The notes under the pieces: generated by a model
The model's database searches: none
What the model was told of the DNA's origin: nothing
The model's input: only the letters and a program-made list of their open reading frames with translations
Translations under genes and position numbers: made by a program
Origin: Desulfobacteraceae bacterium
Lineage (GTDB): Bacteria; Desulfobacterota; DSM-4660; Desulfatiglandales; Desulfatiglandaceae
NCBI GenBank assembly: GCA_030613055.1
Contig: JAUWMR010000049.1
Location: 1 to 33,100 of the forward strand
Direction: 5' to 3'
DNA length: 33,100 nucleotides
Part shown: in pieces, positions 22,570 to 32,951 of the stretch
Numbering within the stretch: position 1 is the first letter of the stretch
Layout: every line of letters starts with the position of its first letter

Positions 22570-22690
22570 GGTGTCAGGCCTACACATTTCACATATGTCA
22601 ACATTCATGAAAAAGTTTGGAACAAATCGACACCCGGCCTAAAATTCTGTAATGCTGTTTGTTTTTTGTCAACTGTGTAGGCCTGACACC
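22570..22690. repeat. REP-like type C element, copy 1
   Basis: A 121-bp unit with inverted ends GGTGTCAGGCCTACACA / TGTGTAGGCCTGACACC. It is nearly identical (3 mismatches counted by eye) to 28483-28603, and the similarity extends on both sides (AACGGCA before, TATGTCTTT after). It has no coding capacity. The terminal palindrome resembles units mobilised by RAYT (TnpA-REP) proteins; no such gene is in the window. Confidence 0.8.
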
Positions 22691-22705
22691 TATGTCTTTG
22701 GTTTT

Positions 22706-26140: not shown

Positions 26141-26230
26141 GTATAACGTCAGGGTTGAGGGGCGCGCCATCTAAACCAGCAGAAGAATCGACGGCGCTGC
26201 TTCGCGTCCCCCTCCACCCCTTTGTTGGGC
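26141..26230 (-). repeat. attC site E (intact, ~90 bp)
   Basis: Minus strand: GCCCAACAAAGGGGTGGAGG at the left and GCGCGCCCCTCAACCCTGAC then GTTATAC at the right. AGGGGTGGAGGGGGACGCG pairs with GCGCGCCCCTCAACCCT, leaving unpaired bases; the loop is about 35 nt. Core AAC/GTT, length and bulges fit the attC definition well. Confidence 0.8.
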
Positions 26231-26270: not shown

Positions 26271-28202
26271 TCATTCGGATTCAGATAATCCGCCACGTAT
26301 CATGATGACTTCTGTAGCCCCTTCCATGTGCCTAATAATGCTGTAGATGCTCTCCGCAACGAGGTTGAGAAGACGGAGATAGTCGGTACGGTGCCAGTTC
26401 TGCTTGGGGAGGCCGAGTTGCGCTGCCGCAGCTGCCGCCCGGTCCCTGTTCGGTGCGTGAGCCAGCCCGCCATAGGTTCTCAGGTCGTATAGGAAAGCCA
26501 ATGGAGCAAAATCGTCCCTTACGCTTCTGTGTGACATTCGAAGTTCCGCTTCTAGGTCGGGCTCGCCTGCATTTTTTGCTTTGCCCTCCGCCTGCCTCAC
26601 TAACATCGGAATTCCAGCGATGTCGGGCTGGAAGCTTTCGACCAACACAGCGATCAAAGTTAACCGCTGTAGAAGATTGCGTGGACCGAGTGGCCGAGGC
26701 GGGTTTTCCTCGTTCATATGGAGGTTACTTCCCACTGCGCCTAGAAGCTTTCGGAGCGACGCTGGTTCCAGCGACTCAATCACCAAGGTTGAAACGAGCG
26801 TGGCTCGCTTCAGAAATTCATCGTCATCGGCGGTAGTGAGATAGACCCACTTTAGCTGACGACCAGCTAAACTATCGAGGGAGCCACGCCACAGAGGGTT
26901 CAGATTCGGCATCCCGAACGAGACAACCATATCAGCGAAGGCAGTGTTCAGTGTATTGAGGGCCTTCACCAGGAGATTTACGGCGTCGGGGACACTCTGC
27001 TCTTGCCTAAGCGCTTTTGCGGTATCTAGGCTCGGCGGTTCCACGGCATACTGCTTCCAGTGTGACCACTCCTCGAAAGGGACACCTTCTGCAAAGTCGC
27101 CGATGGCGGTGGTGAGCAGATCGTTACCAACCCTCGTCGTACTACGAACAAGCCCCCAGTAATGCTGACAGGACACCGAGCCATTATCCTCCACGTCGAA
27201 TCCTGAAGCTCCTTCATACTTCGTCAGCACTTCTTGACGGAAGCACACACGACTCATGAAGTCGCAGCTTTCACCTTCGAACGTACGCCCCTCAGTGTGC
27301 CGGAAATGCTTCCAACGAGCGGGGGCGACTGGCCCTGCGCGTGTCGGAAGAGTGAACGTGTAGGGATCGAAGGATGGCTCGTCGGCCCATGGATCGTCGA
27401 CATCAATCTCTTGCGGTCTTATTTCAAACCAAAAGTGCAGCCTTCGCTGTAAAAATGGTGCGGCAACGGGAATGTCTTGCCGGAGCCCCCAATTCTGCAC
27501 GATCACTTTCGCGCCCTGCTGTGGAGACCCCAGCCTCACCTCTTGCTCCACGAAAGCCCCGATGGTACGGCGCGAAGGATCAAAGAGGTGCAGATGGCGA
27601 TAGTGGCCGACAAGCAATGACATTTGACGTGCCTGAAGGTATTTGCGCAGGTAATCGACTCGGATTTCAGCGACTTCTGTGTTGCCTTGGTCAATCACAC
27701 GCTGAACTAGAGCGTCGACTCCACGTCGTGGGTCCCACCAGATGCCGTTCCCAGGCGTTTTCTCCTCCAGTTCAAAGAACAGCCATAGGTCCGGATTAAT
27801 AAAAAGCTCAACGCCCGATGTGGCGGAAAAAACAAAAACCAGCGGCTCGCCGACTACCGAAGCGAATGGGAACTCGAATCGGTGAAATGGGATATACTTG
27901 TACTCCTTCTCGTCACCCCCATAGAGGACTGAACCTCCCGGCTTACCAAGACTACCAATGACGTTGCCGACAGACTCTAGTTTATCGAAGACCTCTTCGA
28001 AGTGCTCAGAGGCGAGTAATAGGCTCTGCCGCGACACCACGTCCTCGACGCCTCGCTCGTCGCGACTACATGTGATGGTCCGAGCCCCGAGCCTGAACCA
28101 TGGGCCACCCAGGCGCTCGGCAAAGAGATCCCCGGAGAAGTCCAACTCAGGGATGCCAAACAAGTGACTTGGAGCGTCATTTCTGTCGATAATAGCAGCC
28201 AC
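26271..28202 (-). CDS. Large 643-aa protein with C-terminal HEPN-like motif (cassette gene)
   Basis: Starts at GTG (28202) with AGGA about 10 nt upstream. No family is recognised for the first ~450 residues, which look like a beta-rich substrate or sensor region. The C-terminal part is helical and ends LYDLRTYGGLAHAPN, where R575-x6-H582 fits the HEPN RNase motif Rx4-6H, followed by a final helix. It resembles the general layout of ApeA-like defence proteins (long N-terminus, C-terminal HEPN), but identity is not claimed. The gene is visibly GC-richer than its AT-rich neighbours, indicating a separate origin. A well-formed attC lies just past its stop. Confidence 0.7.
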   Translation of the reverse strand: MAAIIDRNDAPSHLFGIPELDFSGDLFAERLGGPWFRLGARTITCSRDERGVEDVVSRQSLLLASEHFEEVFDKLESVGNVIGSLGKPGGSVLYGGDEKEYKYIPFHRFEFPFASVVGEPLVFVFSATSGVELFINPDLWLFFELEEKTPGNGIWWDPRRGVDALVQRVIDQGNTEVAEIRVDYLRKYLQARQMSLLVGHYRHLHLFDPSRRTIGAFVEQEVRLGSPQQGAKVIVQNWGLRQDIPVAAPFLQRRLHFWFEIRPQEIDVDDPWADEPSFDPYTFTLPTRAGPVAPARWKHFRHTEGRTFEGESCDFMSRVCFRQEVLTKYEGASGFDVEDNGSVSCQHYWGLVRSTTRVGNDLLTTAIGDFAEGVPFEEWSHWKQYAVEPPSLDTAKALRQEQSVPDAVNLLVKALNTLNTAFADMVVSFGMPNLNPLWRGSLDSLAGRQLKWVYLTTADDDEFLKRATLVSTLVIESLEPASLRKLLGAVGSNLHMNEENPPRPLGPRNLLQRLTLIAVLVESFQPDIAGIPMLVRQAEGKAKNAGEPDLEAELRMSHRSVRDDFAPLAFLYDLRTYGGLAHAPNRDRAAAAAAQLGLPKQNWHRTDYLRLLNLVAESIYSIIRHMEGATEVIMIRGGLSESE

Positions 28203-28640
28203 GCCCGACTTTTCCTACCCACTAAACTCTGAGCCTAGCATGAGTCCGTGAGTACATTCCTCCTTTTCATACTCTGCTTGTGTGTCTTACCGCTGCCCAA
28301 CAAGTTATTCTATAGTTCTGCATATCTCCACACCTAAGAGTGATATGCAGAAAAGTGATTCCAAAGTTTCTGTTCAATTCCATAACTAAATGAGGTATTT
28401 CAAGGTGGTATCTAATAATAAATTATCTTGGCTGTCCGGTCCAATATTTCCTTAACCCTCAGGAACTACTTATAAACGGCAAGGTGTCAGGCCTACACAT
28501 TTCACATATGTCAACATTCATGAAAAATATTGGAACAAATCGACACCCGGCCTAAACTTCTGTAATGCTGTTTGTTTTTTGTCAACTGTGTAGGCCTGAC
28601 ACCTATGTCTTTTTCGGCTGCAAGCGCCTGGTTAGCTGCC
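28203..28640 (-). repeat. attC space F: attC ends and hairpin around a type C REP insertion
   Basis: Gene-free, 438 bp. Minus strand: it begins CAGCTAACCAGGCGCTTGCA (28636 downward), a typical attC left end. It is then interrupted by the type C REP (28603-28483). It ends with TTCTGCATATC...GATATGCAGAA (perfect 11-bp hairpin arms around 28319-28355) and AACTTGTTGGGC (core GTTGGGC, 28301-28295). The hairpin portion is repeated at 31733-31810. This looks like either one attC split by the REP or two attC sites around an ORF-less cassette. Confidence 0.6.
28483..28603. repeat. REP-like type C element, copy 2
   Basis: The second 121-bp copy of the element at 22570-22690, in the same orientation relative to the cassette genes, with inverted ends GGTGTCAGGCCTACACA / TGTGTAGGCCTGACACC. 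It lies inside attC space F. Differences from copy 1 are two adjacent bases in the loop and one nearby. Confidence 0.8.
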
Positions 28641-30391: not shown

Positions 30392-31501
30392 TTACTCGTC
30401 ATTTTCCGGCTGTTCTTTGTCAGGTTGCGATTCATCAGGTTCATCCTCGTCGCAACCCTCTTCTCTATCACGAATTTGGTTATACTTTTCCAACGGATCA
30501 TGTGCTAACCGGTCCAGCATCCTATCCCGCTCGCGTAACTGTTCGAAAGGATCGCGTGTCAACCGCTCCAGTATCCTATCCCGTTCGTGCAACTGTTCCA
30601 AAGGATCATGCGACAATTGCTTCAACCTTCGTTTCTCTACGGCATCCAGCTGTCTCTCCCTTGACGCACTTTCGATTTCTTCAGCCGCAGATTCAGACAA
30701 TTTCTTACCCCGATCTTTGGCGGTTTCAATAAATGCGTCAGATGAATAGATATATAAGTCGCATTGGGTTTTACTTCGAAATTCGTGGCGTAATTCGGGA
30801 CGCGGACCGATTCTCCGATCACCGGTAAACGCCCACCAATCTTCTTTCAGGTCATCTGTCACCAAAATCACCGGTCGCTTTGACGTCTTTGCATGCTCAA
30901 TCAGCTGATACCATAGCACCAAGTCCCCGTACCTGTCAGGATCCGGTTTCTTGATGTCACTGAATCCGGGCGGAATTTTCCCTGCATATCGTACCGCCCC
31001 TTTCTTATATATATGCCCAAGCACCTCCTCGGTCATTGGCAGACCAACTTTCCCATCGAATAGCTCTGTGATCTTCTCACAAATACTGTCTGTAGTGATC
31101 AAGTCGCGATGCTTGCTTTCGCCTTCTTTCAATTCCTTTTTGATCTCCGTCTCAATGCCCTCAAACCTCGTGTCCAATTCGGAAGTGATATACGGATGCT
31201 GTTTCCTAGCACGCAGTGCCACACCGACCGTCTCTATTGCTTTCGCAATATCCGAGTACCGTTTTAGCTCCTTCAATATGATGCCATAACGGTTCTTGTG
31301 ATATTCCAATGCTGCTTGATGTGGTATCCAAAGTCGCTCATCGAATTCGCCGAAAAATGCTAAAACCTCTTCAGATGTCGTCGCTGAATACGTGTAGAGA
31401 TTCAGCAATACATTTGCGTCTACGACAATGATCGCCTCATTCCAAATTGCATCAAATTCTTCATTCGTTGGCTTGTAGTAGCCGTGAAAGCTTAGCTTCA
31501 T
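30392..31501 (-). CDS. PIN-domain (PIN_8/DUF4935-like) nuclease with repeat tail (cassette gene)
   Basis: 369 aa. The PIN core is IIVVDANVLLNLY (D28), E66 in ALEY, RYGDLVLWYQLIEHA (D193) and ILVTDDLKEDWW (D216/D217), the acidic residues expected for a metal-dependent RNase. This matches the 'PIN-like domain' family PF18476, found in defence contexts. The C-terminus carries three 18-residue repeats of the form DP(L/F)E-QL-x-ERDR (DP at 299, 317 and 335), followed by a very acidic tail (EDEPDESQPDKEQPENDE). GGAG lies 5 nt before the ATG. It is flanked by attC-like sites on both sides. Confidence 0.8.
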   Translation of the reverse strand: MKLSFHGYYKPTNEEFDAIWNEAIIVVDANVLLNLYTYSATTSEEVLAFFGEFDERLWIPHQAALEYHKNRYGIILKELKRYSDIAKAIETVGVALRARKQHPYITSELDTRFEGIETEIKKELKEGESKHRDLITTDSICEKITELFDGKVGLPMTEEVLGHIYKKGAVRYAGKIPPGFSDIKKPDPDRYGDLVLWYQLIEHAKTSKRPVILVTDDLKEDWWAFTGDRRIGPRPELRHEFRSKTQCDLYIYSSDAFIETAKDRGKKLSESAAEEIESASRERQLDAVEKRRLKQLSHDPLEQLHERDRILERLTRDPFEQLRERDRMLDRLAHDPLEKYNQIRDREEGCDEDEPDESQPDKEQPENDE

Positions 31502-31576: not shown

Positions 31577-31728
31577 GTATAATGCGCTGCGGATCAGGAG
31601 CAAGATCGGCGGCAAGCTTGCTTGCCGACGGGATTGGCTGCTGCATTCGCTTGTTGTGAGGCGCGGAGCGCCGAACAGCAAGCGGATGGCAATCCGCAGC
31701 GCATTGTCGAGGGCGCTGAGCGTCCTCG
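31577..31728 (-). repeat. attC-like repeat H, copy 1 of the GCGCTGCGGAT family
   Basis: GCGCTGCGGATCAGGAGCAA (31584 on) to GGATGGCAATCCGCAGCGC (ending ~31713): outer arms GCGCTGCGGAT/ATCCGCAGCGC enclose further hairpins (GGCAAGCTTGCTTGCC, GGCGCGGAGCGCC). It is nearly identical to 32959-33100 over ~142 bp (4 differences counted). The right core on the minus strand is ATTATAC rather than GTTATAC, so this copy may be impaired. A TCGAGG...CCTCGA palindrome follows. Confidence 0.6.
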
Positions 31729-31732
31729 ACAA

Positions 31733-31810
31733 CAAGTTATTCTATAGTTCTGCATATCTCCACATCTAAGAGTGATATACAGAAAAGTGATTCCATAGTT
31801 TCTGTTTAAC
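31733..31810 (-). repeat. attC-like repeat, second copy of the TTCTGCATATC hairpin family
   Basis: AAGTTATTCTATAGTTCTGC and onward repeats 28303-28378 nearly exactly: TTCTGCATATC...GATATACAGAA (one mismatch in the arm), then AAGTGATTCCATAGTTTCTG. On the minus strand it runs into AACTTGTTG, but the sequence after the G differs from the other copy (TTGTCG instead of TTGGGC), exactly where integron recombination would exchange partners. Confidence 0.6.
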
Positions 31811-32245: not shown

Positions 32246-32920
32246 TTATGGAGCGCCTGGGTCTTCTAAAGCAGACTCAGGAGGATTTAAAAAATCCTTA
32301 AAAGCACTCTGTACAGGTGCTAAATTTTCTCGTCTTATATAGTTGATTAACTCGTTATAGACCTCTTCAACAAGTTTTTTGAAATCAGGCATTAATGCTT
32401 TGTAATCTTCCCAGTAAAAACCAGCACCTTTTAATGTGATACCTAATAGACCAACTTTGGGATCACGAGGTCCAATGTCGCAATGTGCAATGATTGTGTC
32501 TCTATGTTCACAGATTTTTTGATGTATCGGTTTCAATGACTCTGAGATTGCTTCTTCTATCTCTTTCAGACTCCACTTTTTAAAAATCCGACCCTCACTT
32601 TTTCTAAAAGGAGCTGCGTAGGCAACAATAGTATCGCGCATCAGTGGCATACGTAGATTTGGATCCTCATCCATATATTTTTCAAGTAGTTCTAATGATC
32701 TCTTGGAGCGTTCTAAATATTCAGTTGAGAAAGACAGGAAAAACGTATATTCGTCTTCCTTTTTGATGAGTTCCAACCAAAATTTAAACGCCTGTACGTC
32801 CAAATGCTCTTTTTTACAGTACTTTTCAGGACTACAACCATCGCCCCCTTTTTTAAGCACCTTTTGTAAATTTACATATTTCGCTATATGTGCTCGCCAA
32901 TTCTTTTTATACGGTTCCAT
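32246..32920 (-). CDS. AbiU2-like HEPN candidate protein (cassette gene)
   Basis: 224 aa from the ATG at 32920; a TTG two codons upstream is possible. Mostly helical and soluble, with KICEHRDTIIAHCDIG in the second half, where R140-x5-H146 fits the HEPN Rx4-6H motif and the 'HRDxxxAHxD' form seen in AbiU2-type HEPN proteins. Relatives act in abortive infection or as toxins. It follows the attC with core GTTAGAT (32958-32952) by ~30 nt and so is the first complete cassette gene in the window. Cysteines C31 and C37 near the N-terminus have no partners. Assignment is by motif only. Confidence 0.65.
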   Translation of the reverse strand: MEPYKKNWRAHIAKYVNLQKVLKKGGDGCSPEKYCKKEHLDVQAFKFWLELIKKEDEYTFFLSFSTEYLERSKRSLELLEKYMDEDPNLRMPLMRDTIVAYAAPFRKSEGRIFKKWSLKEIEEAISESLKPIHQKICEHRDTIIAHCDIGPRDPKVGLLGITLKGAGFYWEDYKALMPDFKKLVEEVYNELINYIRRENLAPVQSAFKDFLNPPESALEDPGAP

Positions 32921-32951
32921 AGCCAAAAAACTTCTGAATTGATTTGCTTAC

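Follow-up and report, generated by a model that had tools for sequence, protein, structure and literature searches.

The question raised by this locus is what is encoded by a 643-codon open reading frame that stands apart from its neighbors in base composition and ends in RTYGGLAH, a stretch resembling the motif of HEPN RNases. The window, by which we mean the whole 33,100-nt stretch of Desulfobacteraceae DNA that was analysed (contig JAUWMR010000049.1), contains the features listed in Table 1. An earlier note on this DNA had described the gene as GTG-initiated and GC-rich, and it is both: its GC content is 0.55 (0.52–0.55 across its 1-kb windows) versus 0.34–0.45 on one flank (22.5–26.5 kb) and 0.40–0.47 on the other (28 kb to the right end; both in 1-kb windows), or about 10 points higher than that of its neighbors. 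The C-terminal motif is also present as had been read, in the form R575-TYGGLA-H582 (R codon, 26478–26480; H codon, 26457–26459), and the C-terminus of the protein is LYDLRTYGGLAHAPN.

Table 1. Coordinates of the 643-codon gene, the regions of its product, and the repeats around it in the window.
Feature	Position	Strand	Basis
643-aa ORF, member of an unnamed HEPN-like family	26271..28202	minus	open over 643 codons, GTG start
N-terminal domain, residues 16-265	27408..28157	minus	predicted fold shared with the Avs3 C-terminal domain (8dgc_A 1858-2076)
Middle region, residues about 300-405	26988..27305	minus	W382 and P389 invariant in 31/31 sequences
Helical C-terminal domain, HEPN-like, residues 406-636	26295..26987	minus	predicted helices, pLDDT mostly 70-90
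R575-X6-H582, predicted RNase active-site motif	26457..26480	minus	R and H kept in 34/34 translated members
Candidate attC site after the 643-aa gene (GCCCAAC ... GTTATAC), weak	26141..26230	minus	read by eye
146-nt attC-like repeat, copy 1	31580..31725	minus	ends read as attC-like
146-nt attC-like repeat, copy 2, at contig end	32955..33100	minus	ends read as attC-like

Taken alone, the motif was rejected as evidence for a HEPN domain, its count being at chance level: RX6H occurs once in the protein versus a mean of 1.23 expected from 2000 shuffles of it, and RX4-6H occurs three times versus 3.56 expected. Searches of Pfam, PADLOC, NCBIfam, and PDB sequences with the protein gave no match at E 10 or below, and PHROGs gave none at E 1. 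What raises the motif above chance is the conservation of both R and H in every one of the 34 translated members, the window protein included, of a family that emerged from searches for relatives.

As sole query, the window protein recovered no relative from 98 other genomes drawn from the family, order, or phylum of its host, nor did a related-locus search with it, and phage records held no match to it or to L029, a relative encoded on a viral contig. Among plasmids, tblastn with the window protein gave weak but significant matches in Novosphingobium (E 4e-9) and Rhizobium (E 2e-4) and four further matches below significance, three of which align over their full length and retain R575 and H582; the Nostoc and P. 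syringae members were later confirmed by searches with other members (E 2e-14 and 2e-81, respectively). A Halobaculum protein (tblastn E 5, tree support 0.37) was assigned by alignment and motif only, and we count it tentatively as an archaeal member. A six-member profile matched 9 of 247 genomes of the window's phylum, its own genome among them; a three-sequence alignment reached a copy in a Chloroflexota MAG with 66% identity over residues 1–636; and viral contigs yielded 11 members and 1 member to subfamily alignments and no relatives to scans with four other family alignments (A3, A5, A6, and A8). With L029 and another member, L019, as tblastn queries, 14 and 12 plasmid records were matched. 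The plasmid records opened were five of the six matched by the window protein, seven of the 14 matched by L029 in addition to that of Nostoc opened earlier, and one of the 12 matched by L019 in addition to that of P. syringae.

The organisms of the members opened belong to the Chloroflexota, Pseudomonadota, Fusobacteriota, Actinomycetota, and Cyanobacteriota; the family is thus present in at least five named bacterial phyla, on viral contigs, on plasmids, and in the probable integron array of the window. Its members are about 525–645 aa long and gave no convincing family match (six scanned in Pfam and PADLOC, six in PHROGs, and ten in NCBIfam). The weak library matches (Hera_DD, HTH_23, and BcsR in one member each, E 0.035–0.14; PHROGs of unknown function, one or two per member, in four members, E 0.085–0.37; acyl carrier, mycoplasma, and NikR models, E 0.022–0.82) were all below threshold and were rejected as family names. 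A keyword search of the literature, which could easily miss an unnamed family, found no printed description of it.

The spacing between R and H varies among the 34 members (RX4H in 26, RX5H in six, and RX6H in two, the window protein and its Chloroflexota relative), and no column other than these two is invariant when 25 C-terminal domains are aligned. The 34 include L021, which is 439 aa and short at a contig start; it and the near-duplicates L030 and L038 stand outside the 31-sequence tree, and a copy split over reading frames near a contig end (L022, genome G201) and a fragment with stop codons (genome G160) had been dropped before the counts. Across 31 full-length sequences, six residues are invariant (L185, L196, W382, P389, R575, and H582); the W382..P389 pair lies in the middle region, outside both predicted domains. 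About 400 residues preceding the helical domain are conserved across phyla. Comparison of the window gene with the 66%-identical Chloroflexota copy gives dN 0.24 and dS 2.2, the latter near saturation, for a dN/dS of about 0.11, and as judged from these sequences the gene is under purifying selection. A putative HEPN-type C-terminus is well supported by the conservation of R and H.

AlphaFold2 models, based on one alignment of 14 sequences, place this motif in a structural context. The model of the window protein has a mean pLDDT of 56, with values under 50 over residues 265–403 and higher values in the helical C-terminal domain (Table 1); for L029 the mean is 70.5, and most of the helical C-terminal domain reaches about 90. 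R575 is placed close to the end of helix 548–577 and H582 in the loop before helix 586–595, a loop with pLDDT under 50, and in L029 the corresponding R532 and H537 lie around the end of helix 515–535, matching the placement in the window protein. This is the arrangement described for HEPN RNases, in which R is near a helix end and H in the following loop (PMC3710099). The same survey gives N, D, or H as the typical, not defining, residue after R; N or H follows R in six of the 34 members, and the window protein has T, which is polar.

Fold searches with both full models gave no HEPN structure among the matches listed, and a BFVD structure search gave nothing at E 0.001. The C-terminal matches of the window model (rhodopsins, receptors, coronavirus spikes, and designed bundles; Z 6.0 or less) and of the L029 model (vinculin tail; Z 3.4) were taken as generic helix bundles and rejected as identities. 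By hhalign, the C-terminal profile scored 12.7 against ApeA-HEPN (E 0.017, probability 1.3%), above 30 of 30 column shuffles (best shuffle, 8.4); this was the best of seven profile comparisons, and its alignment was in register. The scores against AbiU2-like (5.5) and DUF4145 (1.0) profiles were not above the best shuffle, and because these families are HEPN-type by Pfam name or according to PMC3710099, they are misses rather than controls; together with the integrase, late-activator, S_4TM, and own N-terminal profiles, they scored 5.6 or less. The HEPN fold is therefore not proven, the ApeA-HEPN match being weak and the AbiU2-like and DUF4145 matches not exceeding shuffles. The earlier proposal of a C-terminal HEPN-like domain is thus partly supported, by the invariance of R and H and by their predicted helix-end and loop positions, but it drew little or no profile similarity; the fold prediction that had been suggested as its check puts R575 and H582 in a helical C-terminal domain but brought up no solved HEPN structure among the matches listed. 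We file the family provisionally under HEPN, by its motif and the predicted position of that motif.

The same results bear on whether the protein cuts RNA at all. One could envision a structural role for the R/H pair, or a role in RNA binding with no cleavage, in a protein that blocks or binds a phage component with no RNase activity; HEPN domains thought to be non-catalytic do exist (PMC3710099), and the lack of confirmation of the HEPN fold by structure search would fit such a role. However, R and H are invariant in all 34 members despite a spacing that varies from 4 to 6, as expected of an active site, and the non-catalytic HEPN domains are, according to the survey, those without the motif. 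We regard a non-catalytic pair as very unlikely, and an RNase activity and a role in defense as likely for the family.

The N-terminal part offers a clue to what such an RNase might respond to. The earlier note had found nothing familiar in the first ~450 residues, and indeed they match no named sequence family, but by predicted structure the first ~265 match the C-terminal domain of Avs3. The only strong N-terminal fold match of both models was to residues 1858–2076 of 8dgc chain A, which is Avs3 bound to the terminase of phage PhiV-1 (VIA-align Z 9.3, 165 residues, 3.7 Å for the window protein; Z 10.1, 155 residues, 3.5 Å for L029), and the next-best match had Z 2.9 or less in either model. 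Foldseek gave this chain a probability of 0.98 (E 0.03) with the window model and of 1.00 (E 0.004) with L029; by E-value it ranked first for L029 and second for the window model, for which an unrelated chain with probability 0.15 came first, and no match reached E 0.001 with either model. Because both models share one alignment, the match is one result seen twice. The matched region is the last ~220 residues of the Avs3 chain, and in STAND proteins of this kind the C-terminus carries the sensor and the N-terminus the effector, Avs1–Avs4 recognizing the large terminase, the portal, or another phage protein (PMC12931631).

We found no corresponding link at the level of sequence. The N-terminal profile (A12) matched no PDB sequence, and its matches among 247 genomes were confined to six of them and were all to members of the same family or to fragments of these. 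A search for Avs3-like proteins with Cap4_nuclease (PF14130) matched 6 of 297 genomes with no frame over 1373 codons, and the N-terminal profile did not match the two long Cap4_nuclease proteins (1332 and 1369 aa) to any meaningful degree (best, −2 bits). The connection to Avs3 is accordingly one of predicted structure. From this predicted fold we infer that the N-terminal domain may be a sensor of an invader molecule; that it would sense terminase is speculative.

Many of the members have defense genes or genes of mobile elements as neighbors. L019 adjoins hsdS (Pfam Methylase_S), with a gene read as hsdR past one short ORF and one read as hsdM beyond, and the copy on a Fusobacteria plasmid is flanked by annotated hsdR, from which one short ORF separates it, and by hsdM-hsdS. 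Both members are in type I restriction operons, and they belong to distant branches of the tree. A restriction endonuclease gene also lies a few kilobases from a further plasmid copy. Such positions could be explained if the protein were a guard of restriction or of other defenses, that is, a HEPN-type RNase silenced by its partners and freed when a phage inhibits them, with an N-terminal domain that binds the partner rather than the phage. PrrC, which is silenced by its type I restriction system (PMC3710099), is a precedent. However, the annotation around six other plasmid copies shows no restriction gene, a Pfam scan of ten window neighbors found none, and the N-terminal fold match is to a phage sensor. 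A guard therefore seems unlikely to us.

Other members are found in other defense or phage-like contexts. L024 is beside a CBASS-like locus, its neighbors being S_4TM, SMODS, and ThiF genes together with a TIR-like gene that scores under the curated cut-off; L003 is near a TIR-domain gene; and a DUF4145 gene follows L026 and an AbiU2-like gene, just below cut-off, follows L023. On viral contigs, the gene lies between late activator and endolysin genes (L029), has terminase and portal genes nearby (L028), or has adjacent integrases (L032, L033, and L034); among ten flanking proteins scanned, which cover part of the neighbors on such contigs, one (L035) gave no match. An Agrobacterium copy is beside an ABC transporter. 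The Chloroflexota copy follows a gene read as trpB, with no other defense gene noticed there, and this suggests that one gene of the family can travel alone. The same Chloroflexota stretch has an extra ORF between genes read as trpG and trpD (L027, 2195–2980).

These neighborhoods also bear on the possibility that the protein is the toxin of a toxin-antitoxin or dormancy module, a stress-induced RNase whose N-terminal part is its own regulator. PMC3710099 proposes the same for HEPN proteins of integrons and mentions other toxin RNases in cassettes. Against this, inspection by eye of the neighborhoods read showed no recurring small partner gene beside the family, and the ~400 residues ahead of the helical domain are kept across phyla, so that we see only a slim chance of such a module.

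The explanation we favor, with slightly better than even confidence, is a mobile, single-gene abortive-infection protein with an Avs3-like sensor and a HEPN-type RNase. Under such circumstances, the N-terminal domain would bind a phage component, and the signal would be relayed through the middle region, with its invariant W..P, to the C-terminal domain, which would cut RNA with R575 and H582 in a metal-independent manner, probably as a dimer, halting translation before the phage can spread. The gene itself may have been spread by phage-like elements, by plasmids and, in the window genome, probably by an integron. Abortive infection is suggested by the R/H invariance, the motif placement, the Avs3-like fold, the mobile and defense settings, and the dN/dS of about 0.11. 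Counted against it are the absence of HEPN structures from the matches listed, the weak HEPN profiles, the N or H after R in just six members, the low pLDDT of the H582 loop, the dependence between the models, the lack of an Avs3 sequence link, and surroundings such as the ABC transporter and trp genes, which are not defense-like. A bolder version, which is possible but which we hold to be doubtful, is that an Avs-type phage-recognition domain exists outside the STAND ATPases, is fused to a HEPN-type RNase with no ATPase switch of the Avs kind, directly recognizes the large terminase or a similar conserved phage packaging protein, and has been carried by phage-like DNA, plasmids, and an integron into at least five bacterial phyla.

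We do not file the protein as an Avs, ApeA, or PrrC protein. Avs3 (AVAST type 3, STAND; 8dgc) shares with it the predicted fold of its last ~220 residues, which resembles the N-terminal ~250 here, and members of the 643-aa family also occur in defense settings; in contrast, Avs3 has about 2000 residues rather than 643, Pfam gave no STAND NTPase match for the window protein, and the Avs3-type domain is at the opposite end. The effectors of Avs1–Avs4 are, according to PMC12931631, nucleases that cut phage and host genomes, whereas here the effector is HEPN-like. PrrC has a C-terminal HEPN RNase and could by analogy be the nearest model for the restriction-linked members, but it carries an ABC ATPase (PMC3710099), for which the Pfam scan of the window protein gave no counterpart at E 10 or below. 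ApeA (HEPN_Apea, PF18739) is of roughly similar length (449–512 codons in complete-looking frames) and has a C-terminal motif; however, PF18739 was matched neither by the window protein (E 10) nor by the six members scanned (E 1). An integron-cassette HEPN protein (PDB 3jrt), described in PMC3710099, shares the integron setting, but no PDB sequence was matched at E 10 or below. The nearest working model, by analogy, may be Tha of a Staphylococcus prophage, a phage-borne single protein with a C-terminal HEPN R-X4-H motif and an N-terminal part to which PMC11087260 assigns no known domain and only a low-confidence prediction; Tha is triggered by a phage tail protein, according to the same paper. 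Compared by description only, Tha differs in its length (301 aa versus about 525–645) and in the Avs3-like N-terminal fold predicted here.

A family that goes unnamed in Pfam, NCBIfam, PADLOC, and PHROGs and that spans many phyla and many mobile elements would represent a new type of single-gene phage defense, and would assign a function to plasmid "hypothetical proteins" of about 525–645 residues. If the N-terminal domain does sense what Avs3 senses, pattern recognition would be separable from the STAND machine, and a small protein would be available for studying how phage proteins are sensed.

The gene had also been described as an integron cassette, and this is likely though not proven. One integron integrase of the same genome exceeds the curated cut-off (TIGR02249, 362 bits versus 265; contig C86), weaker matches being found in 14 of 14 control genomes and none of them above cut-off, and the 146-nt attC-like repeat has two copies in the window and is present on two further contigs, on one of them as a partial copy. 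However, the candidate attC site that follows the gene has a fold only weakly better than those of its shuffled versions (z −1.38), and the array is unlinked to the integrase because the window contig ends at a 146-nt repeat and the integrase is on another contig. Same-strand neighbors in the window encode PIN_8, AbiU2-like (below the curated cut-off), DUF2806, DUF2971, and TauD-like proteins. A 226-aa protein between the 146-nt repeats (32246–32926, minus strand) matches HEPN_AbiU2 weakly (E 6e-4, short of the curated cut-off) and is possibly a second HEPN cassette. The PIN_8 protein (30392–31501, minus strand; E 2e-63) holds a 54-nt tandem repeat in its C-terminal part (30484–30591, 78% alike).

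Several other repeats were observed in the window. A 130-nt element with inverted ends is present at 22570–22699 and 28483–28612, the latter about 280 bases upstream of the 643-aa gene; the two copies are 98% identical, and the genome holds five copies at least 126 nt long of this MITE-like element. An 80-nt repeat (28298–28377 and 31730–31809, 95% identical) adjoins likely cassette borders, and a 244-nt version of its second copy is on contig C76. Elsewhere in the same genome, contig C60 has a 449-codon frame with a HEPN_Apea match below cut-off (L072; E 7e-4). The locus of the integron integrase (L051, 2666–4168 and 368–1060) includes opposite-strand genes beside it, and one of these genes ends in an LRGEIAHRG stretch and, from this reading, may encode another HEPN protein.
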